Of a DNA stretch of 33,286 bases, positions 3,736-32,672 are shown in pieces. Position 1 is the stretch's first letter. The number at the start of each line of letters is the position of its first letter. The translations under genes and the position numbers were made by a program. The stretch spans positions 1-33,286 of the forward strand of contig CANBEI010000008.1 of assembly GCA_947367565.1 (NCBI GenBank), read 5' to 3'. The notes under the pieces are model-generated. The model saw only the letters and a program-made list of their open reading frames with translations, did no database searches and was not told where the DNA came from. Source of the stretch: an uncultured Candidatus Saccharibacteria bacterium (lineage in GTDB: Bacteria; Patescibacteriota; Saccharimonadia; Saccharimonadales; Saccharimonadaceae).

Positions 3736-4305
3736 ATGACAAAAACAAAAAAACAAAATTCAACTACTAATGCTCAGCACCGTTTACCGCTTTATCGCCG
3801 AGCCTGGTTTTTGATGCTAGTTATTATCGTGATTATCGCTGCTATTGTTTGTACTATTATTTTTCTAGTTAAACCTGGCCAGCAGCCAGACGCCATCAAA
3901 GATAGTGACGCCGCGCAAAATGATATTTCTGAGTCTCAAGCACCTATAGACGACGGCCAACATATTGATGAGGATGAACCTTATTCTGATCCCGACCAAG
4001 TTACCATCCAATACGAAGGCGAGAATCCTAATCGCTCTAACGAACTGAGCGGTAGTATCACTTACGCTTCACACGACGGTATTGGTACTATGATTAATCA
4101 ATACCTTAGCGAGGGCAGTTGTGAACTTAAGCTTACCGGCAGCAACGGTCAGATCTATACTGCTACGTCTAACATTTTTGCGGCTGCTTCAACCTCGGCT
4201 TGCGGTGACTTTAATATTGATGTTATACCTGGCGTCTATCAGATTGAAATTACTCTCATTAGTGGCGATAAGCAGGGAACTATTACGGGAGAGTATAGCC
4301 TATGA
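3736..4305 (+). CDS. Membrane-anchored extracytoplasmic protein of unknown function
   Basis: I do not recognise this 189-residue protein. A basic N-terminus is followed by one strong membrane helix (about residues 26-47, FLMLVIIVIIAAIVCTIIFL), then an acidic linker (DAIKDSDAAQNDIS...) and a C-terminal domain of about 95 residues. That domain is rich in beta-prone segments (GSITYAS, CELKLTGSNGQIYTA, YQIEITLISG) and has two cysteines, C132 and C153, that could form a disulfide outside the cell. It overlaps the next gene by ATGA (4302-4305), so the two are translationally coupled, which suggests it assists or accompanies the lectin protein. It could be a small beta-sandwich surface protein; the fold is inference only. 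Confidence 0.75.
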   Translation: MTKTKKQNSTTNAQHRLPLYRRAWFLMLVIIVIIAAIVCTIIFLVKPGQQPDAIKDSDAAQNDISESQAPIDDGQHIDEDEPYSDPDQVTIQYEGENPNRSNELSGSITYASHDGIGTMINQYLSEGSCELKLTGSNGQIYTATSNIFAAASTSACGDFNIDVIPGVYQIEITLISGDKQGTITGEYSL

Positions 4306-6470
4306 GTTTGAAATTAGATTATAAAGCATTAAAAAAGTATCGTCTTACGGTTTTTACTGTTTTCGTTTTCTGTATGATGGCGAGTTTTGGTTTTTTCGCA
4401 ATGCGTGGTATGCAAAAGACCTCTGCCGCTTCAACCGCCGGATTTAGTGCTGGCAACATTATTAGTGATGCCGTAATGTCAAATTATAACTCCATGTCGG
4501 TTAGCGATATTCAAAACTTTCTCACATCTAAGAATCCTTGCAACGATTACGACTATAATAAATACCTGCGCCTAAAGGCCGCTTATCCGAATAATAGTTG
4601 GCATTTTGAGAACGGTCACTTCATCTGTCTTTCCGAAGAGCGTTTCGGCGATGGCGAGGTAATTGGTTCTGGCCAAACGGCCGCTGAAATCATTCATCAG
4701 GCCGCCCAAGATTATAAGATCAACCCCCAGGTCCTCCTCGTATTACTCCAGAAAGAGCAAGGCTTAATTACGGATACCTACCCAAACCAGGTTCAGTATC
4801 GAGCCGCTACTGGTTTTGGTTGTCCCGACACTGCCGCTTGTAGCACCAAATATTATGGCTTCAAGAATCAGGTTCGCAATGCTGCTAGTATGTTCCGTGA
4901 AGTTTTAAATGGTGGCTGGTCTAATTACCCCGCCTATAAAACGGTTTATGTCCAGTATAATCCTAATCCTGGTTGCGGTGGTACGAATGTCTATATCGAG
5001 AACCGCGCCACCTCTGCCCTCTACCGCTATACGCCATATCAGCCAAACGCCTCCGCTTTGAACGCTGGTTATGGTACGGGCGACGTTTGTGGTGCTTATG
5101 GTAACCGTAATTTCTACCTTTATTTTATGGATTGGTTCGGCAGCACACAAGTATCCGTAGATGGCGTCGTAGCAGATATCCCAGAAGGAGTGTACAGTTT
5201 CGCCCCAATCTCTAACATTAAAGCCAGATTAGGTGTTCAGGGTAAAAATGTTCAGCTGACTGACTCCGATCAATGGAATGTTAAGCGCGAAAGTGATGGT
5301 TATTATACTTTAACCCACTTAGGTAGCGGTGAAGTTTTAGACGTGGACAATGCTAGTATGGAGCAGGGCACCAATATTCAGACCTGGTTTAGTAATGGTA
5401 CGTGTGCGCAGAAATGGAAGATTTTTCGTACATCTGGCGGCGGGTTGACTTTTGAGTCTGCCTGTATGCCTGGGATGGTTATTGACATGAGTAACGCCAG
5501 CTCATCTATAGGTACAAATATTCAGCTTTGGCTAACCAACAACACTAATGCTCAAAAATTCCAGTTATATACCGGTCAAACCGTTGCAGACGGATATTAC
5601 ACAATTCGTAGTATGAAGGATAGTGGACGTTCTATAGATGTTTCTGGCGGAAAGAACCAAAACAAAGACAACATTCAACTTTGGTTTAGTAACAATACAG
5701 AAGCTCAAAAGTGGCATGTGGAGTATCTCGCAAATACAGATTCCTATAGCATCCGTAATGCGGCGACCGGGCGAGCTATTGATCTTGACAATGCGAGTGT
5801 TCGTACCGGTGCTAATATTCAGCTATATGACTATAACGGCACATGCGCACAGCGTTGGAAATTCATTCCAAATAACGACGGGAGCTATACGATTGCCTCG
5901 GCTTGCGCCGTAGACTATACTATAGATCTCAGCAGTGGCATACCGTCTGATGGCGCCAACATTCAACTTTGGTTTAGTAACAATACGGAAGCTCAACATT
6001 GGAAATTCGTTCAGTGGGAACAAGCGATTCCTGACGGTGTCTATACAATTCATAGCGGATTACAATCTGGCCAAGTTCTTGACGTCGCCTCAGCCCAAGA
6101 CCGTAACGGTGCCAACATTCAACTTTGGTTTAGCAATGACACTGATGCTCAAAAATGGCAAATTACTTATAACCGCGCCACAGATAGTTACGCTATTCGT
6201 AATGTGATGTCGGGCAAAGCACTTGACCTAGTGAATAGCAGTACTTATAGCGGCAATAATATTCAGCTCTACGATCATAACCCCCAAGTTTGCGCTCAGG
6301 ACTGGAAGCTTACTCTCCGCACTACTGATTATTACAGTTTATCGTCAGCTTGCAATACGGGGTACGCTATCGATTCCCAAAACGGCGACAGCTATAGTGG
6401 CAACAATATTCAACTATGGTTTGACAACGGCACTAACGCTCAAATTTGGCAATTTGTTCCTAGTCACTAG
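4302..6470 (+). CDS. Large secreted ricin B-type lectin protein with N-terminal hydrolase-like domain
   Basis: This 722-residue protein begins with a basic stretch and a hydrophobic segment (about 14-36) followed by SAAS, a signal peptide or anchor. Residues about 48-285 form a domain I recall from Saccharibacteria and Actinobacteria secreted proteins (AGNIISDAVM, INPQVLLVLLQKEQGLIT, ATGFGCPDTA, YGTGDVCGAYGNRNF). It is often annotated as hemagglutinin- or muramidase-like, but its activity is unproven. From about 290 to the end are repeated ricin-type beta-trefoil units with QxW signatures (IQLWFSNNTEAQKW and variants, at least eight), making about three lectin domains. It probably binds glycans on the host or on the cell itself. 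It is translationally coupled to the preceding membrane protein. Confidence 0.9.
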   Translation: MSLKLDYKALKKYRLTVFTVFVFCMMASFGFFAMRGMQKTSAASTAGFSAGNIISDAVMSNYNSMSVSDIQNFLTSKNPCNDYDYNKYLRLKAAYPNNSWHFENGHFICLSEERFGDGEVIGSGQTAAEIIHQAAQDYKINPQVLLVLLQKEQGLITDTYPNQVQYRAATGFGCPDTAACSTKYYGFKNQVRNAASMFREVLNGGWSNYPAYKTVYVQYNPNPGCGGTNVYIENRATSALYRYTPYQPNASALNAGYGTGDVCGAYGNRNFYLYFMDWFGSTQVSVDGVVADIPEGVYSFAPISNIKARLGVQGKNVQLTDSDQWNVKRESDGYYTLTHLGSGEVLDVDNASMEQGTNIQTWFSNGTCAQKWKIFRTSGGGLTFESACMPGMVIDMSNASSSIGTNIQLWLTNNTNAQKFQLYTGQTVADGYYTIRSMKDSGRSIDVSGGKNQNKDNIQLWFSNNTEAQKWHVEYLANTDSYSIRNAATGRAIDLDNASVRTGANIQLYDYNGTCAQRWKFIPNNDGSYTIASACAVDYTIDLSSGIPSDGANIQLWFSNNTEAQHWKFVQWEQAIPDGVYTIHSGLQSGQVLDVASAQDRNGANIQLWFSNDTDAQKWQITYNRATDSYAIRNVMSGKALDLVNSSTYSGNNIQLYDHNPQVCAQDWKLTLRTTDYYSLSSACNTGYAIDSQNGDSYSGNNIQLWFDNGTNAQIWQFVPSH
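5370..6457 (+). repeat. Internal repeats encoding ricin QxW units
   Basis: The trefoil units are also repeated at DNA level. The 39 bases starting at 5670 and at 5958 differ at one position, and the copy starting at 6113 shares their first 20 bases. Such similarity, including third codon positions, points to recent duplication or gene conversion rather than old domain repeats. Confidence 0.85.
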
Positions 6471-18834: not shown

Positions 18835-18911
18835 CGCGGGATAGAGCAGCCTGGTAGCTCGTTTGGCTCATAACCAAAAGGTCGTTGGTTCAAATCCAAC
18901 TCCCGCAACCA
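18835..18911 (+). tRNA. Initiator tRNA-Met (anticodon CAU), CCA encoded
   Basis: The 77 bases fold as a complete cloverleaf: acceptor CGCGGGA/TCCCGCA, D arm GAGC/GCTC, anticodon arm TTTGG-CTCATAA-CCAAA, T arm GTTGG-TTCAAAT-CCAAC, then ACCA. Initiator identity is shown by the C1-A72 mismatch and the A11-U24 pair. The usual three G-C pairs next to the anticodon loop are reduced to two, because pair 29-41 is U-A. The CCA tail is encoded and shared with the left arm of the following hairpin. Confidence 0.95.
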
Positions 18912-18955
18912 AAATGGCGTACATACTGTCCCCCCACAGATGTGCGCCATTTTGG
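18909..18955. other. Long hairpin sharing the tRNA CCA end
   Basis: CCAAAATGGCG (18909-18919) pairs with CGCCATTTTGG (18945-18955). Pairing continues through TACAT/ATGTG and CTGT/ACAG with one bulged A, giving about 20 bp around a CCCCCC loop. The left arm begins in the tRNA CCA. No T-run follows on the plus strand, so it is not a standard terminator. It could protect or end the tRNA precursor, or mark an insertion boundary at the tRNA 3' end. Confidence 0.65.
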
Positions 18956-18978
18956 TATTGATGTATATTCCTACTATC

Positions 18979-19025
18979 AAAAAGAAGGCACTCTATTGTC
19001 CCAATACAGGGACGCAAATGCCTTC
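18979..19025 (-). terminator. Intrinsic terminator of the nuclease/winged-helix operon
   Basis: Read on the minus strand, GAAGGCA (19025-19019) pairs with TGCCTTC (18990-18984), with an inner GTCCC/GGGAC stem, and is followed by TTTTT (18983-18979). It lies 22 bases after the nuclease gene. An outer GGTATTGA/TCAATACC pair (18954-18961 with 19024-19031) extends the structure. Confidence 0.7.
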
Positions 19026-19046
19026 AATACCATAATTCTATCATAC

Positions 19047-19460
19047 CTAGGAGTACACGTCAATAATCTTTTGATTTTTTGTGATTAATATAATCCGCCT
19101 AATCCCGGTAGAGTTATGAGCCAAATAATACTTGATTCTAGCTAACGCCTGAGCTGTGCCCATGCTCCCTGGTTTCAATAAACTAATAATAATTTTGTCG
19201 GATTGCTTCTTTGCCTTTCGTAGATTATCCTCAATTGTATGCTTGCCTCTTCCTCTGATATTCTTAATTTCCCATAAATCGCCCCCATTGACGACCTTAA
19301 TATCAGGCGTAGAGCTGATACTACGTGGCACAAACTCCACGTTACTATGAAATAGCTTCGTACATAGTTCTGCGACGGTCAGTTCATATTTGTCTGGTTT
19401 TGGCCTAAGGCTACTCGGTACGATTAGTTTATATTTATTCGTCTTCATTGGCCGCCTCAT
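19047..19460 (-). CDS. PD-(D/E)xK nuclease-like protein (CdiA-CT tRNase-like)
   Basis: The 137-residue protein has the order E31 in a helix (ELTVAELCTKLF), a strand, P52-D53-I in SSTPDIKVV, then E64-I-K66 in DLWEIKNI, and a following helix with AKKQSD before a strand (KIIISLL). This is the PD-(D/E)xK active-site layout, and the ...EIK...A-x-KQS-x-x-III spacing resembles CdiA C-terminal tRNA nucleases and related phage or ICE proteins. It may cut RNA or DNA; the substrate is inference. Its ATG at 19460 overlaps the upstream gene by 26 bases. A second ATG at 19448 (MKTNKY) follows a GAGG and may be the real start, giving 133 residues. Translation is coupled to the winged-helix gene. Confidence 0.7.
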   Translation of the reverse strand: MRRPMKTNKYKLIVPSSLRPKPDKYELTVAELCTKLFHSNVEFVPRSISSTPDIKVVNGGDLWEIKNIRGRGKHTIEDNLRKAKKQSDKIIISLLKPGSMGTAQALARIKYYLAHNSTGIRRIILITKNQKIIDVYS

Positions 19461-20265
19461 TACTCTTGAGATTCAATTCGCTTAGCATATCGATAATATC
19501 GTCAGCCATCTCCAAAAATTGATTAATCTTCTTTCGCACATCTCGTGGTAGTACAGAGCTATATTTACACGAAGCGCTTAACTCCCAACCGTCGCCAGAC
19601 TCAAAGACCCCTCGCTCTTTCTCAAAACTTTTGCTGCCTGTATCTCTAGACGTTAAGGCTTTTGGTTTATCTTGAGGTGGCTGCTCGTTTTTCGATGGGG
19701 ATTCCTCCTGCGTAACATCCGCAGCACTCTCTGTTTCTGAATTCATTAGAATCGAATCTGTCCGAATAACTCCATGCTCAAGACGGCCCGCGAAAGCTGC
19801 TGATTCGCGAAATACCCTTGCTGCGGTCTCCGCAGCCCTGCTTGAAATGCCATAATTTCTTGAAAGAATATTCTCGAGCATTTGCGGTAGCGCCTGTTCA
19901 GCATAAGACTGTAATAGCTTATTGTACAGTGCAGGGGTCTCACAAGCTTCGACGATTGCTTTATTTTTTTCTTCATTGCTAGTGTAGTTAAGGATCCTTT
20001 CGGCTAATTCTGACATGGAATAGGTGCTTCCAGAACGAGACAATAAACCGAAATATCCACAAGACGCAATTCTACTAGCAGAAATCCCATTTACACCCTT
20101 ATAACCTAGGGCTTGCGCCGCCTCTTCGCGCGAATAAGGCCCTTTACCTAGTCTCTCGCGTAGCGTCGCCACGTCCTCGATCGCCGTTTCAAGGTTGCTG
20201 CTCGGATACGGGGAACTACGCTCGGTGTGTTTCTTATTCACGGTGTTTTCTGTTGCATTCGCCAT
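19435..20265 (-). CDS. Winged-helix protein paired with the nuclease; function unknown
   Basis: The 276-residue protein has a likely winged-helix domain at about 25-90. Its sequence (REEAAQALGYKGVNGISASR, then GYFGLLSRSGSTYSMSELAE) follows the pattern 'A..LGY....G.S.R.I.....YGLL...G..Y.MS.LA..IL'. A helical segment follows at 90-155 (CETPALYNKLLQSYAEQALP; GISSRAAETAARVFRESAAF), as in uncharacterised mobile-element proteins. Residues 165-215 are low-complexity and polar, and the C-terminus has an acidic helix (FLEMADDIIDMLSELN). It has its own strong promoter and an AGGAGGT ribosome binding site, and its end overlaps the nuclease start. It could be a regulator, a targeting partner or an immunity protein. 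I know of no assigned function. Confidence 0.8.
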   Translation of the reverse strand: MANATENTVNKKHTERSSPYPSSNLETAIEDVATLRERLGKGPYSREEAAQALGYKGVNGISASRIASCGYFGLLSRSGSTYSMSELAERILNYTSNEEKNKAIVEACETPALYNKLLQSYAEQALPQMLENILSRNYGISSRAAETAARVFRESAAFAGRLEHGVIRTDSILMNSETESAADVTQEESPSKNEQPPQDKPKALTSRDTGSKSFEKERGVFESGDGWELSASCKYSSVLPRDVRKKINQFLEMADDIIDMLSELNLKSNEAANEDE

Positions 20266-20300
20266 ATGATACCTCCTGTTCGTTATTTATCTATAATTAC

Positions 20301-20329
20301 AGTATAGCCAGCGATTCAGTGAATGTCAA
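20301..20329 (-). promoter_or_regulatory. Promoter of the winged-helix/nuclease operon
   Basis: Minus-strand TTGACA (20329-20324), 17 bases, TATACT (20306-20301), followed by a leader of about 30 bases with AGGAGGT before the ATG at 20265. A strong consensus promoter for an accessory operon. Confidence 0.75.
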
Positions 20330-20611
20330 GAACGAAATGGTGAATAAAATGAAACAAAAACTAACGCTCCAAAATTATCTCTGTAAAATAGCCAAGAGCT
20401 TGAGATAGAACATGTACATTCGATTCATTAGCTATCATGAAAAGTAGTTTACGCTCCATGCGACTTGGAAACTGTGCCCGTTTTCTTGAAGTTAGCTCAG
20501 CTACGCTGACGATTACTTTTCCACACCTGCGCAAAACCGCCCCATTGACACAAAGCTAGAACGTTATATACTCTAACTTGCTTCTATCCCAAGAAATAAC
20601 CATAATAAGTA
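20330..20611. other. Gene-free stretch upstream of the unknown secreted protein
   Basis: I find no gene longer than about 35 codons. There is a plausible plus-strand promoter: TTGACA (20545-20550), 16 bases, TATACT (20567-20572). A 23-codon open frame from 20337 has no convincing ribosome binding site and no recognisable product. The rest shows no repeat or strong hairpin. Confidence 0.4.
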
Positions 20612-20640
20612 TTGACTTTTTCGCCAATCTGTGCTACAAT
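20612..20640 (+). promoter_or_regulatory. Promoter of the conserved-spacer family, copy P1
   Basis: TTGACT (20612-20617), 17-base spacer ending CTGTGC, TACAAT (20635-20640). The spacer resembles those of the promoters at 24116, 24430 and 32708. The following leader (to 20726) has AGGGG/CCCCCT pairing around an AGGC/GCCT stem, a 10-codon open frame at 20655-20687, and ends in a GGAGGAG ribosome binding site. Confidence 0.75.
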
Positions 20641-20726
20641 GAAAGAATAAGCACATGAGGGGAGTACTTAGGCATATTAACAGATAGCCTTCTACCCCCT
20701 CCGACATAAAAAGGAGGAGAATAAAA

Positions 20727-21473
20727 ATGAAGAAAAATGTAGTATTGACGGTAGCAATGACCATGGTAGCGGTTCTGATTTGTGTGGGGTTTGGTTTTCA
20801 TCTTGGCGCGAAGCAGGCGGCCAACGTAGATTATCTAAAGAACCCTGCACTTGATGCAGCCTGGTCTTCAGATTATCCCGTAGGCGTCGGCACCAACAGC
20901 CCCGAGGATGCGCCAAAAGAGCCTTTTGTTACTGCTGGCGAGCTAATTGAAGAAACCGACGATTTCGGTTGGCTATTATTGCCTGCCGTGTCACTGTCCT
21001 TAGACGGTATAGCTGTGAAAGCTGCGCTTTCGACCAACACAGAGTGGAAAACTGCAACCAGCTATCAGGCAACCCTTCAGTTACCTGACGAAGTCTTTAT
21101 TGACGGCTCAGATTGTAAGGCAGACGTCTACTATCCGACATCGCTAAAAGCCGGTGAAACCGGCACGATTATTGTAATTGTGTCGTCTGATAACGGTTAT
21201 ACTTATTGTGGCTATTGTCAGTTCACGGCTGCCGACAATCTGCAGATTGTTTATGGCAGTGATCACCCGCAGGTAACGTCTGGCGGAGATTTTGACACGT
21301 CGCTTGATGGTTACCGGTTAGATGTTAATTTCTACACCGCCGCTACTCCCGAGCATCGCAGTAATCGTGACGGTTCAGCCGGTCATTATGGAGCATGGGG
21401 AGACATGACCATAGAGTTTATCGACATTACTGATACTACTGATCCGCGGGTTTCATTGCTCGACAACATCTAA
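20727..21473 (+). CDS. Secreted or membrane-anchored protein of unknown function
   Basis: I do not recognise this 248-residue protein. It starts with a signal-like segment (MKKNVVLTVAMTMVAVLICVGFGFHLG, about 27 residues) and no clear cleavage site, so it may stay anchored. The exported part is acidic and beta-prone, with segments such as ATSYQATLQLPDEVF and GTIIVIVSSDNGYTYCGYCQF. Three cysteines (one in DGSDCKADVYY, two in the CGYC pair) could form disulfides or bind a ligand. GGAGGAG at 20712-20718 supports the ATG at 20727. It is a single-gene unit with a strong promoter, a structured leader and a terminator, suggesting high expression. It could be a surface or pilus-associated protein; nothing in sequence proves that. 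Confidence 0.8.
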   Translation: MKKNVVLTVAMTMVAVLICVGFGFHLGAKQAANVDYLKNPALDAAWSSDYPVGVGTNSPEDAPKEPFVTAGELIEETDDFGWLLLPAVSLSLDGIAVKAALSTNTEWKTATSYQATLQLPDEVFIDGSDCKADVYYPTSLKAGETGTIIVIVSSDNGYTYCGYCQFTAADNLQIVYGSDHPQVTSGGDFDTSLDGYRLDVNFYTAATPEHRSNRDGSAGHYGAWGDMTIEFIDITDTTDPRVSLLDNI

Positions 21474-21582: not shown

Positions 21583-22785
21583 TCAACCTTGACTTCTTCG
21601 TTCAAGCCTTTCATTGGTTTTTTCACGTTCTGCATCAACCAAGCCTTCAGTGTCCGCATCCTCTACCGCGCCGTCCTCGTCCGTCTCGCTCAGCGCATTT
21701 AACAGGGAATCTTCCGCATTCTTGCGCTTCTTCTTTTCTGGTGCCTTGGCTAGTTCAATATCAAGGTCATACCCCGTCAACTTCGACGCCAGCCGCACGT
21801 TTTGCCCCTGACGACCAATCGCAATCGACTGTTGGTCCTCGGTGACATAAACTTTCGCTTTCTTTCCGTCGATCTCGACTTTCATAATCTCCGCTGGGCT
21901 CAATGCCTCGCGAATATACTCCGACGGATTATCGCTCCAGTTAATAATGTCGATTTTCTCGCGGTCGCCAATCTCGTTCATAATCGCCTGCACGCGAATC
22001 CCGCGCCCGCCAACGAACGTCCCGACCGGATCCACCCCTGGCACGGTCGACATGACGGCAATCTTCGTCCGGCGACCCGCCTCGCGCGCAATTCCGCGAA
22101 TCTCGACCGAGCCATTTTCAAGCTCTGGCACTTCCTGGCGGAACAGATACTCGATGAATTCCGCACTCCCGCGCGACAAAATCAGCTGCGCCCGCGCATC
22201 ATCATGCTCGACGCCCTTAATATAGACCTTTAATCGCTCGCCGACCGTGTAATATTCACCATCAATTTGTTCACTGCGCGGCATAATCCCGGTCGCCTTA
22301 CCGAGGTCAACCCGTACCACTCGCGGCTCAACTCGCGCCACCACCCCAGTCATAACCGTACCGATTTTATCCTCAAACTCCGACAAAACCGCATCGCGTT
22401 CTGCCTCGCGTAGTCTCTGGACAACTACTTGTTTCGCCGTCATCGCTGCTACGCGTCCGAAATCCTTCACCTCTTCTTTTTCTTCAATCAGATCGCCAAT
22501 CTGCGCATCTGCCTTGATTTTCTGAGCCTCTGCTAGCGGAATCTCCGTCGCCGGGTTATAAGCGACATCATCTTCAATCACTTCGCGCTCAATATACACG
22601 ACCGCTTCGCCGGTCTTCGTATTCAACATTGCGCGCACGTTCATGTCTTTGTCGCCATTATCCTTGCGCCATGCCGCCGCAATCGCCATCTGGACGACGT
22701 CCAAGACCGCCTCTTCCGGCAAACCTTTTTCTTCCGCAATGACGTTCACCATCGCGCCTAACTGTTTGAGATCCAAACCTTCCAT
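21583..22785 (-). CDS. nusA: Transcription termination/antitermination factor NusA
   Basis: NusA binds RNA polymerase and nascent RNA, controlling pausing, termination and antitermination. The 400-residue form has the N-terminal RNAP-binding domain (QLGAMVNVIAEEKGLPEEAV), an S1 domain (about 135-200, VMTGVVARVEPRVVRVDL), and KH1 and KH2 with VPGVDPVGTFVGGRGIRVQA and SIAIGRQGQNVRLASKLTG. A short acidic tail replaces the C-terminal repeats of E. coli NusA, as is normal outside Proteobacteria. I place the start at 22785 because GGAG lies just upstream and the family sequence begins there; the open frame extends 49 codons further but covers the leader. It has its own promoter and a leader with terminator-like and palindromic structures. 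Confidence 0.95.
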   Translation of the reverse strand: MEGLDLKQLGAMVNVIAEEKGLPEEAVLDVVQMAIAAAWRKDNGDKDMNVRAMLNTKTGEAVVYIEREVIEDDVAYNPATEIPLAEAQKIKADAQIGDLIEEKEEVKDFGRVAAMTAKQVVVQRLREAERDAVLSEFEDKIGTVMTGVVARVEPRVVRVDLGKATGIMPRSEQIDGEYYTVGERLKVYIKGVEHDDARAQLILSRGSAEFIEYLFRQEVPELENGSVEIRGIAREAGRRTKIAVMSTVPGVDPVGTFVGGRGIRVQAIMNEIGDREKIDIINWSDNPSEYIREALSPAEIMKVEIDGKKAKVYVTEDQQSIAIGRQGQNVRLASKLTGYDLDIELAKAPEKKKRKNAEDSLLNALSETDEDGAVEDADTEGLVDAEREKTNERLERRSQG

Positions 22786-22809
22786 TTTACTCCTTTGTCT
22801 TACATTTGC

Positions 22810-22827
22810 TGTACATTGTACATACAA
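22810..22827. repeat. Palindrome in the nusA leader, matching the one at 1448-1472
   Basis: TGTACA-T-TGTACA (22810-22822) is a perfect palindrome, and the 17 bases 22811-22827 are the exact reverse complement of 1460-1476. It sits 25-40 bases upstream of the nusA start codon, within the transcribed leader. Confidence 0.65.
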
Positions 22828-22877
22828 CTGATATACATCTGCAATACATCTCCGCAGCCCCCGCGCAAGCTCCACGC

Positions 22878-22902
22878 AAAAACCGCCCCTCTTCGGGTCG
22901 GT
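22878..22902 (-). terminator. Terminator-like hairpin in the nusA leader (possible attenuator)
   Basis: On the minus strand ACCG-A-CCC and GGG-G-CGGT pair (7 bp around one A-G mismatch) with a GAAGA loop and are followed by TTTTT. It lies just after the predicted nusA transcription start and before the coding region. It could end transcripts early and let NusA control its own level. Confidence 0.5.
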
Positions 22903-22920
22903 CAATATCAGTATACCTCC

Positions 22921-22948
22921 ATTGTACCGCAAATCTCCACTCTGTCAA
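22921..22948 (-). promoter_or_regulatory. nusA promoter
   Basis: Minus-strand TTGACA (22948-22943), 16 bases, TACAAT (22926-22921). It starts right after the terminator of the upstream gene and predicts a leader of about 130 bases. Confidence 0.7.
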
Positions 22949-31275: not shown

Positions 31276-32016
31276 ATGAATCAGCCTGTCAACGACCAAG
31301 TCACCCCCGCTGAAACCGCCGAAATCCTGCGCCTTGCCGAGCAGAGTCTAGAAGTCGAAGGTGATTTTGTTGAACTAGGTTGCTATCGTGGCGACACTTC
31401 GGTTCTACTCGGAAAGTTACTCCAAAAACCTGTGGAAAAGTTGTGCAAAAATCACGACAAATCAGTGGAAAACTTGTGTAAAACTCCCCAGAACTTGTGT
31501 AAAAACCTGTGGATTTATGATTCATTCGCTGGATTACCAGATAAAACCTCAGAAGATAGCTCCGGCGCTGGTCAAAATTTCCAAAAAGGTGAACTTCTAG
31601 TCTCGAAACGTGAAGTCGTCGAGAAATTGCGCAAACACGGCCTTAAAACCGCCAGCCACCTCAGCCCAGACAACCGTTCTAGTCAGGCTACCAGCCCCGA
31701 TTCAAACCTTAGCACCGTCATCGTCAAAAAGGCCTGGTTTGATGATCTTACGCCGCAAGACCTCCCGGACATTATCGCTTTCGCCTTCCTTGACGGTGAC
31801 CTCTATGAGTCTATCCGCGTTAGCCTAAAACTTGTCGTGCCGCGTCTCTCCGAACAGGGAATTATCATCGTTCACGACTATAATAACCCCGAGCTTCCCG
31901 GTTCTGCTCGCGCCGTCGACGAATTCCTGCGGTCACACTCAGAATTCCGTCTCCAAGTTCGCTATACGCTAGCAATCCTGACCAGAGTCAGCGCTAAGGG
32001 CACACCTCAAGCATGA
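31276..32016 (+). CDS. TylF/MycF-like SAM-dependent methyltransferase with a repeat-derived insertion
   Basis: The 246-residue protein resembles TylF-type methyltransferases: VEGDFVELGCYRGDTSVLL is the SAM-binding motif I, WIYDSFAGLPD follows, then AFAFLDGDLYESIRVSLKLV (metal-binding D-x-D type) and GIIIVHDYNNPELPGSARAV near the end. Between motif I and IYDSFAGLP, where relatives have a few residues, lie about 30 extra residues (KPVEKLCKNHDKSVENL, then CKTPQNLCKNL). They are encoded by short DNA repeats at 31427-31514. The insertion is in frame and falls in a loop, so activity may survive. No Shine-Dalgarno is visible. It overlaps the DUF3800 gene by ATGA. The methyl acceptor is unknown; a sugar hydroxyl is possible. 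Confidence 0.85.
   Translation: MNQPVNDQVTPAETAEILRLAEQSLEVEGDFVELGCYRGDTSVLLGKLLQKPVEKLCKNHDKSVENLCKTPQNLCKNLWIYDSFAGLPDKTSEDSSGAGQNFQKGELLVSKREVVEKLRKHGLKTASHLSPDNRSSQATSPDSNLSTVIVKKAWFDDLTPQDLPDIIAFAFLDGDLYESIRVSLKLVVPRLSEQGIIIVHDYNNPELPGSARAVDEFLRSHSEFRLQVRYTLAILTRVSAKGTPQA
31427..31514. repeat. CTGTGGAAAA / CTTGTGTAAAA repeat block inside the methyltransferase gene
   Basis: CCTGTGGAAAAGTTGTGCAA (31429), CAGTGGAAAACTTGTGTAAA (31463), GAACTTGTGTAAAAA (31491) and CCTGTGGAT (31506) are diverged copies of one motif. The reverse complement resembles tandem DnaA boxes (TTTTCCACA, ATCCACA) and matches the block at 16351-16373. Confidence 0.65.
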
Positions 32017-32672
32017 TTCGAGTTTTTATTGACGAATCCGGTAATCTAGGTCGCGGCGGTCAATATTTTGTCCTCGCCGCCGCGGTTTTTGACACGCCAC
32101 AAGGCATCAAGCGCGCCGCTCGCCTCATCCGTAAGACTCAAATCATGCTCGCCAAAGATAAGCCTATCCCAATTATCGAAGAGATCAAATCTTGTCGCCT
32201 CTCTGTTCCGCAGCGCCAGCGTATCCTTAATAAGCTCGTCGCGAAGGCCGATATCGACATCTTCTATCTCGTCGTCGACAAGGGAAAAGTCGAACTTTTG
32301 CGCCAGAGCAAGCCTAAAAACCTCGTCTATAATTATTTCGCTAAACTCCTTACTGACCAGATTTTTAGCCGCTACAACGACGATTTTATTGTCACGTTCG
32401 ACCAGCGCTCGACTGCAGTCAAATCCATGAATTCACTCATCGACTATATCACGATTAACGCCTACACTTCGCATCAGCACGTCAATCATACCGTTCAGGT
32501 TGAGCAAAAGGACTCAAAGACTCATAATAATCTCCAAACCGCTGACATTCTGGCCGGAACTATTGCACAAGCCTATTGTCAACAAAATCGCCATTTTCTC
32601 AGTCTGATCGAAGAACGCATCGTCAAGGGCGACGAGTTCCCGCGTGCGACCTTTAGAGGCGGGTTGTTGTAA
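32013..32672 (+). CDS. DUF3800 domain protein
   Basis: The 219-residue protein starts FIDESGNLGRGGQYFVLAAA, the defining Asp-Glu-Ser-Gly strand of DUF3800, an RNase H-like domain found in phage, mobile and defence-related contexts. DDFIVTFDQRST supplies a second acidic strand, and NNLQTADILAGTIAQAY near the C-terminus is the conserved Q-x-A-D segment. These acidic residues (D7, E8, and the later Asp residues) could form a metal site. Activity has not been established for most members. It overlaps the methyltransferase gene by ATGA and shares its transcript. Confidence 0.88.
   Translation: MIRVFIDESGNLGRGGQYFVLAAAVFDTPQGIKRAARLIRKTQIMLAKDKPIPIIEEIKSCRLSVPQRQRILNKLVAKADIDIFYLVVDKGKVELLRQSKPKNLVYNYFAKLLTDQIFSRYNDDFIVTFDQRSTAVKSMNSLIDYITINAYTSHQHVNHTVQVEQKDSKTHNNLQTADILAGTIAQAYCQQNRHFLSLIEERIVKGDEFPRATFRGGLL

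Follow-up and report, generated by a model that had tools for sequence, protein, structure and literature searches.

CdiA-CT toxins of CDI systems are the closest described relatives of the nuclease studied here. In CDI and other polymorphic toxin systems, such a domain ends a large secreted carrier, CdiA in the case of CDI, and an immunity gene follows directly. The two solved toxins most similar to our nuclease, 4G6V (CdiA-CT of B. pseudomallei 1026b) and 5j4a, are both tRNases, whereas the CdiA-CT of E. coli TA271 is a Zn-dependent DNase with Asp198, Ser209 and Lys211 (PMC9086364). A domain about 36% identical to our nuclease is found at the C-terminus of the MuF polymorphic toxins of Streptococcus phages; there, it ends a phage head protein, and two small genes follow. 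For the partner protein encoded beside the nuclease, the closest described structures are BrxA of BREX systems, the recognition domains of the type IIS enzyme FokI, and SspB; BrxA binds dsDNA, and structural neighbours of the FokI/SspB type have been reported for it (PMC9240713; PMC12839542). Distant profile relatives of the partner, retrieved with a partner alignment (L124, L125, L126), are DUF5343 proteins (PDC-M34A) and wHTH-TIR fusions (PF10137). Our literature search on DUF5343 and PDC-M34 returned nothing on function. Finally, type II toxin-antitoxin systems are small overlapping two-gene operons with a DNA-binding first gene, whose toxin is not kept without its antitoxin and in which exchange of toxins is common.

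The locus described here, in a window of 33,286 nucleotides (the whole stretch of DNA analysed) from G000, a genome of the Saccharibacteria type with 914 kb in 70 contigs, resembles each of these systems in part. It shares with CdiA-CT 1026b a family match above the cut-off, the fold (Z 12.5) and an E-D-ExK active site, but the nuclease is a standalone chromosomal gene of 133 aa rather than the terminal part of a large, secreted CdiA protein or the tail of a phage protein, it has no CdiB, and its 3' neighbours are a terminator and a tRNA-fMet gene instead of an immunity gene. The partner has the dual-HTH fold of BrxA (Z 8.2), FokI (Z 9.4) and SspB (Z 6.8), over about 155 residues, but gives no detectable sequence match to them and has a linker and a C-terminal hairpin-helix in addition. 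The unit is not flanked by BREX, Ssp or methyltransferase genes, and inspection of the window's ORF list by eye revealed neither BrxC, PglZ or PglX nor a nearby DNA methyltransferase that might be cognate to a FokI-like enzyme. Compared with DUF5343 and wHTH-TIR proteins, the window partner falls below the Pfam threshold (no match to PF17278 at E up to 1) and is paired with a separate CdiA_C gene as effector instead of carrying a TIR domain. The small overlapping operon whose first gene is predicted from its fold to bind DNA is that of a type II toxin-antitoxin system; intact relatives of the nuclease are, however, kept without the partner.

Layout and chromosomal site of the unit

The ORF list places two overlapping minus-strand genes, as originally predicted, between the tRNA-fMet gene (18835-18911, plus strand) and nusA (21583-22932, minus strand). 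The first gene of the operon (19435-20265) encodes the partner of 276 aa and the second (19047-19460) the nuclease, listed with 137 aa. The true start of the latter is probably Met5 (19448), which leaves a gene overlap of 14 nt, because a GAGGCGG ribosome-binding site lies ahead of this codon and the relatives start at the same position. A promoter-like site, TTGACA-17-TATACT (20301-20329, minus strand), scored 11/12 in a consensus scan and is followed by AGGAGG ahead of the partner's ATG; as the scan returned 8 sites in the region versus 4.4 expected from shuffles, the match is good, yet no proof. Downstream of the nuclease gene, RNA folding predicted a hairpin terminator (18985-19026, minus strand) with arms GAAGGCA and TGCCTTC followed by TTCTTTTTG (-25.4 kcal/mol for 19046-18975). 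The signals claimed to flank the operon could both be located in this way.

The tRNA gene bordering this variable site was identified by ARAGORN with anticodon CAT, and the C1/A72 mismatch read in its sequence marks it as the initiator tRNA. It has its own terminator hairpin at 18908-18956 (inverted repeat I1; -31.7 kcal/mol for 18905-18965). The unit lies 135 bp past its 3' end and is encoded on the other strand. The ORFs listed for the window include no integrase, and a search for repeats of the tRNA-fMet 3' end gave none, so tRNA-mediated integration was not retained and the original placement of the module at a tRNA 3' end holds as a position only. A 13-nt stretch of the tRNA anticodon arm (TTTGGCTCATAAC, 18862-18874) recurs exactly in the coding strand of the nuclease gene (19113-19125); relatives do not conserve the match in their proteins, and it is probably due to chance.

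The pair was detected in 2 of about 100 genomes of the genus, G000 and G050; the tRNA-fMet gene was located in 92 of 100. G050 keeps both genes at the same tRNA-fMet site, co-oriented and with the same order and overlap, and both proteins are about 50% identical to those of the window. The closest relatives also have the O-antigen-ligase-like gene ahead of the tRNA and differ in the gene content of the interval between tRNA-fMet and nusA; in G040, alignment of the flanks showed that it holds only a homologue of the window gene at 20727-21473, i.e. an empty site for the pair. The pair is accessory and not core, as the original prediction had it. The variable site (18912-20727 in the window, and L128-L139 and L145) is occupied in close relatives by a NUDIX-like gene, surface-protein fragments and other genes. 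Several units of the partner family adjoin a tRNA gene (fMet twice, Glu, Leu and Gln). At other places in the window, we noted a secreted-looking protein of 722 aa (4302-6470) with many DVxxGxxxNGxNIQLWxxNxTxAQKW repeats, like ricin-type lectin repeats, and a protein of 219 aa (32013-32672) that is DUF3800-like by eye, DUF3800 being often found near mobile or defence genes.

The nuclease and its family

The nuclease matches Pfam PF18451 (CdiA_C) with an E-value of 3.8e-10 and 40.3 bits against a cut-off of 26.6, over profile positions 2-81 of 81. The original prediction could match the system to no named family; this match settles the question for the nuclease, while the partner remains without one. 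The AlphaFold model (pLDDT 94.5, 38 family rows) has the fold that had been proposed. In the PDB it comes closest to 4g6v_A (Foldseek E 1.1e-5; VIA Z 12.5 over 119 residues, rmsd 3.0), followed by 5j4a, the CdiA-CT of E479 (Z 8.3); weaker matches are PaqCI (Z 7.6) and 2p14, the small subunit of R.BspD6I (Foldseek E 0.74). The PD...E-x-K and Q-S motifs recognised earlier are real, corresponding to P52-D53, E64-x-K66 and A83-x-x-Q86-S87, and E26 can be added to the active site. D53, E64 and K66 are invariant in 61 nuclease loci, E26 and Q86 nearly so. Judged from its sequence and its model, the protein is a CdiA_C-family PD-(D/E)xK nuclease of the CdiA-CT kind. A sequence search of the PDB gave nothing meaningful for either protein. 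The D53-E64-x-K66 spacing is that of Asp198-Ser209-x-Lys211 in CdiA-CT TA271 (D-11-(E/S)-x-K); since this DNase has the same spacing while the solved matches are tRNases, the fold does not give the substrate class of the nuclease.

Nuclease genes of this family are numerous. Matches were obtained in 67 genomes of 150 relatives, with up to eight copies each, and G000 itself has six; outside this group they are rare in the phylum (9/287 genomes). Near-identical types occupying different loci (e.g. L063-L066) and internal stop codons in some copies point to mobile, short-lived genes. In L056 and L067, from two other families of the order, nearly identical nuclease genes each follow a Replic_Relax winged-helix gene (PF13814 in L056) at a distance of 8 bp, a likeness that suggests recent transfer on a mobile element. 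Searching plasmids with the nuclease yielded no match, and viral contigs searched with the partner, the NYN gene described below and the nuclease yielded no relative.

Most nuclease copies are solo, without this partner. In the nuclease tree, the clade of the window nuclease comprises the window and G050 pairs together with five solo copies, and its branching leaves open whether the nucleases of the two pairs group together. Intact members of the clade (L040, L041, L042 and L044), 46-55% identical to the window nuclease, have no adjacent partner; L042, 55% identical by BLAST, lies in the same genome as the window. In G040, G014 and G024 no partner was found anywhere in the (incomplete) assemblies, and no small conserved antitoxin or partner ORF was found beside the solo nucleases. 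As the family is mobile, multi-copy and mostly without partner, strict dependence of the nuclease on an antitoxin is unlikely, and the toxin-antitoxin option raised by the original prediction is weakened.

The partner and the genes beside its relatives

The AlphaFold model of the partner (10 rows; pLDDT about 95 in the N-domain, at residues 20-170) predicts a dual-HTH, FokI/BrxA-like DNA-binding domain (residues ~17-172), a disordered linker (174-215) and a C-terminal hairpin with a long helix (216-274). The N-domain aligned with FokI (2fok_B, VIA Z 9.4, 150 residues, rmsd 3.4 A), with two BrxA entries including 7zge (Z 8.2), with the nickase N.BspD6I (Z 8.1) and with SspB (Z 6.8). VIA-align warns that Z values below 8 are common by chance, and Foldseek alone gave no significant match. 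We nevertheless counted the likeness, because the top rows form one known dual-HTH group, as in PMC9240713, and the match spans the whole N-domain. The model places the N-domain with the dual-HTH DNA-binding domains of FokI and BrxA, in line with the winged-helix partner first proposed, and the protein is thereby predicted to bind DNA. Pfam, NCBIfam, PADLOC and PHROGs gave no significant match to the partner, and PADLOC none to either window protein.

Relatives of the partner are rare: 4/150 relatives, 7/380 genomes in the phylum, 4/394 in the family and 6/393 in the class; the scan of genome contigs gave four. A plasmid search with the partner returned a single match, in Tistrella, and a phage search none. 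The gene in the second position varies. It is a CdiA_C nuclease in G000 and G050. In G547 the partner overlaps an NYN nuclease gene by 23 nt (PF01936, E 4.6e-17), and in a Zambryskibacteria genome (L118) the partner is followed after 80 bp by an NYN gene (E 9.9e-12). The partner of G875 overlaps by 26 nt a 307-aa gene without family match, and that of G359 overlaps a 308-aa gene without family assignment. No effector gene adjoins the partners of G119 and G135. Farther from the window partner, the relatives in G363, G426 and G640 carry a fused CAP12/Pycsar TIR domain. One of the distant relatives is a DUF5343 protein that matches the PADLOC candidate PDC-M34A. These data show that the effector gene beside the partner has been exchanged (CdiA_C and NYN, with TIR as fusions in distant relatives). 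By eye, the effector-position gene of G875 (L168, 4098-5021) carries a C-terminal HDFHDRW and looks PLD-like; Pfam, NCBIfam and the PDB gave no confirmation of such a fold.

Type II/IIG restriction-modification genes were found near three of the partner genes: an MmeI-type enzyme precedes the Zambryskibacteria partner, a type II methyltransferase and a restriction enzyme adjoin the G875 unit, and a type IIG enzyme is found about 700 bp on from the Tistrella partner. The kinship with conflict systems suspected at the outset is supported. The C-terminal region of the partner is common to G000, G050, G547 and G135, and G875 and G119 do not share it; its likeness across CdiA_C-linked, NYN-linked and solo relatives gave shuffle z values of 31.7, 17.2 and 12.2. 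A region common to partners in all three situations is not specific to one effector.

Possible functions of the pair and of the solo nucleases

We read the unit, tentatively and with a little less than even confidence, as an accessory, probably anti-mobile-element (defence) operon that combines a DNA-binding sensor or regulator with a toxic effector. The first gene would produce a FokI/BrxA-like dual-HTH protein that binds DNA, and the overlapping second gene, translated together with it, would supply the CdiA-CT-type nuclease as the effector, the two proteins presumably forming a complex. Contact with foreign or abnormal DNA, or the loss of an inhibitory contact, might then cause the partner to direct or release the nuclease, which would cut either tRNA, like its closest solved relative, or DNA, so that the infected cell or the invader is stopped. 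We counted in favour of this reading the matches to FokI D1-D2, BrxA, N.BspD6I and SspB, taken as one group; the CdiA_C match, with its structural likeness to a tRNase toxin and its near-invariant catalytic residues; and the conservation of pair and site in G050, the exchange of effectors and the restriction genes nearby. Against it, the two CdiA_C-linked partners known both belong to one genus, partners also occur without effector (G119 and G135), and no Pfam, NCBIfam or PADLOC model recognises the partner. No experimental work on a member of the pair turned up in our literature search.

A type II antitoxin would give much the same layout. The partner would then hold a nuclease toxin inactive, the N-domain autoregulating through DNA and the linker or C-terminal helix binding the toxin. 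Such an arrangement, which we consider rather unlikely, agrees with the predicted DNA-binding first gene, the disordered linker and C-terminal helix, the overlap and the single promoter, with the toxin family of the nuclease, and with the exchange of effectors, which fits such systems. We prefer a sensor with its effector because the intact same-clade solo nucleases are tolerated, even in genomes where no partner or other small conserved partner ORF was found; because the C-terminal region of the partner, present also in an NYN-linked and a solo relative, does not track effector type; because partner relatives adjoin restriction enzymes or carry a fused TIR domain, or stand alone; and because the fold of the partner is that of defence DNA readers.

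A split type IIS-like restriction or homing-type DNA nuclease, in which the partner reads a sequence and the nuclease cuts DNA beside it like the domains of FokI or the subunits of BspD6I, appears improbable. The likeness of the partner to the recognition parts of FokI and N.BspD6I, the PD-(D/E)xK fold and the weaker matches to PaqCI and 2p14 would suit it, but the closest structural relatives of the nuclease are tRNases and not restriction enzymes, a kinship that it has to explain, no DNA methyltransferase adjoins the unit, and exchange for NYN or TIR effectors is ill-suited to site-directed DNA cutting. Since most nuclease genes lack such a partner, the two might also be independent modules in a chance operon, a mobile solo nuclease, of a family reaching 5-8 copies in some genomes, having landed behind an unrelated DNA-binding gene whose relatives also occur alone; this is very doubtful, as two species, whose versions of both proteins are about 50% identical, keep overlap and order at the same site, and in other genera too partner relatives overlap an effector gene.

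Beyond this locus, the defence operon that we favour could represent an undescribed two-gene anti-mobile-element family, so far mostly in Patescibacteria, in which a dual-HTH protein is joined to exchanged toxic enzymes (CdiA-CT-type, NYN and possibly others), with TIR-fused distant relatives; we regard this as conceivable, with confidence short of even. If true, this combination of a defence-type sensor and exchangeable effectors would offer a testable candidate for phage resistance in Saccharibacteria. Major lineages of uncultured bacteria are reportedly essentially devoid of CRISPR-Cas (PMC4742961, where Saccharibacteria are mentioned too), which makes phage resistance in Saccharibacteria an open question.

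How a cell tolerates a CdiA-CT-type toxin nuclease that occurs as a standalone, mobile, multi-copy gene with no evident immunity gene is a further question raised by these data. Solo nucleases lie directly behind a same-strand gene for a FISUMP-type surface protein in 11 of the 55 loci with a callable upstream neighbour, compared with 3 of 328 control genes from the same stretches (Fisher p 5e-8, a value that treats loci as independent and is inflated by related loci). FISUMP-type fragments lie at most 350 bp away in 23 of 61 nuclease loci (for example L050, L055, L073 and L082), and many of these genomes are rich in FISUMP-type proteins. This link is absent at the window and may bear on the role of the solo nucleases. 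Adjoining another nuclease copy of G000 is a reverse transcriptase resembling the diversity-generating retroelement type (L005, 1-960 and 1172-1408; L098), accompanied by an Asn-rich template-like repeat of a FISUMP C-terminus.
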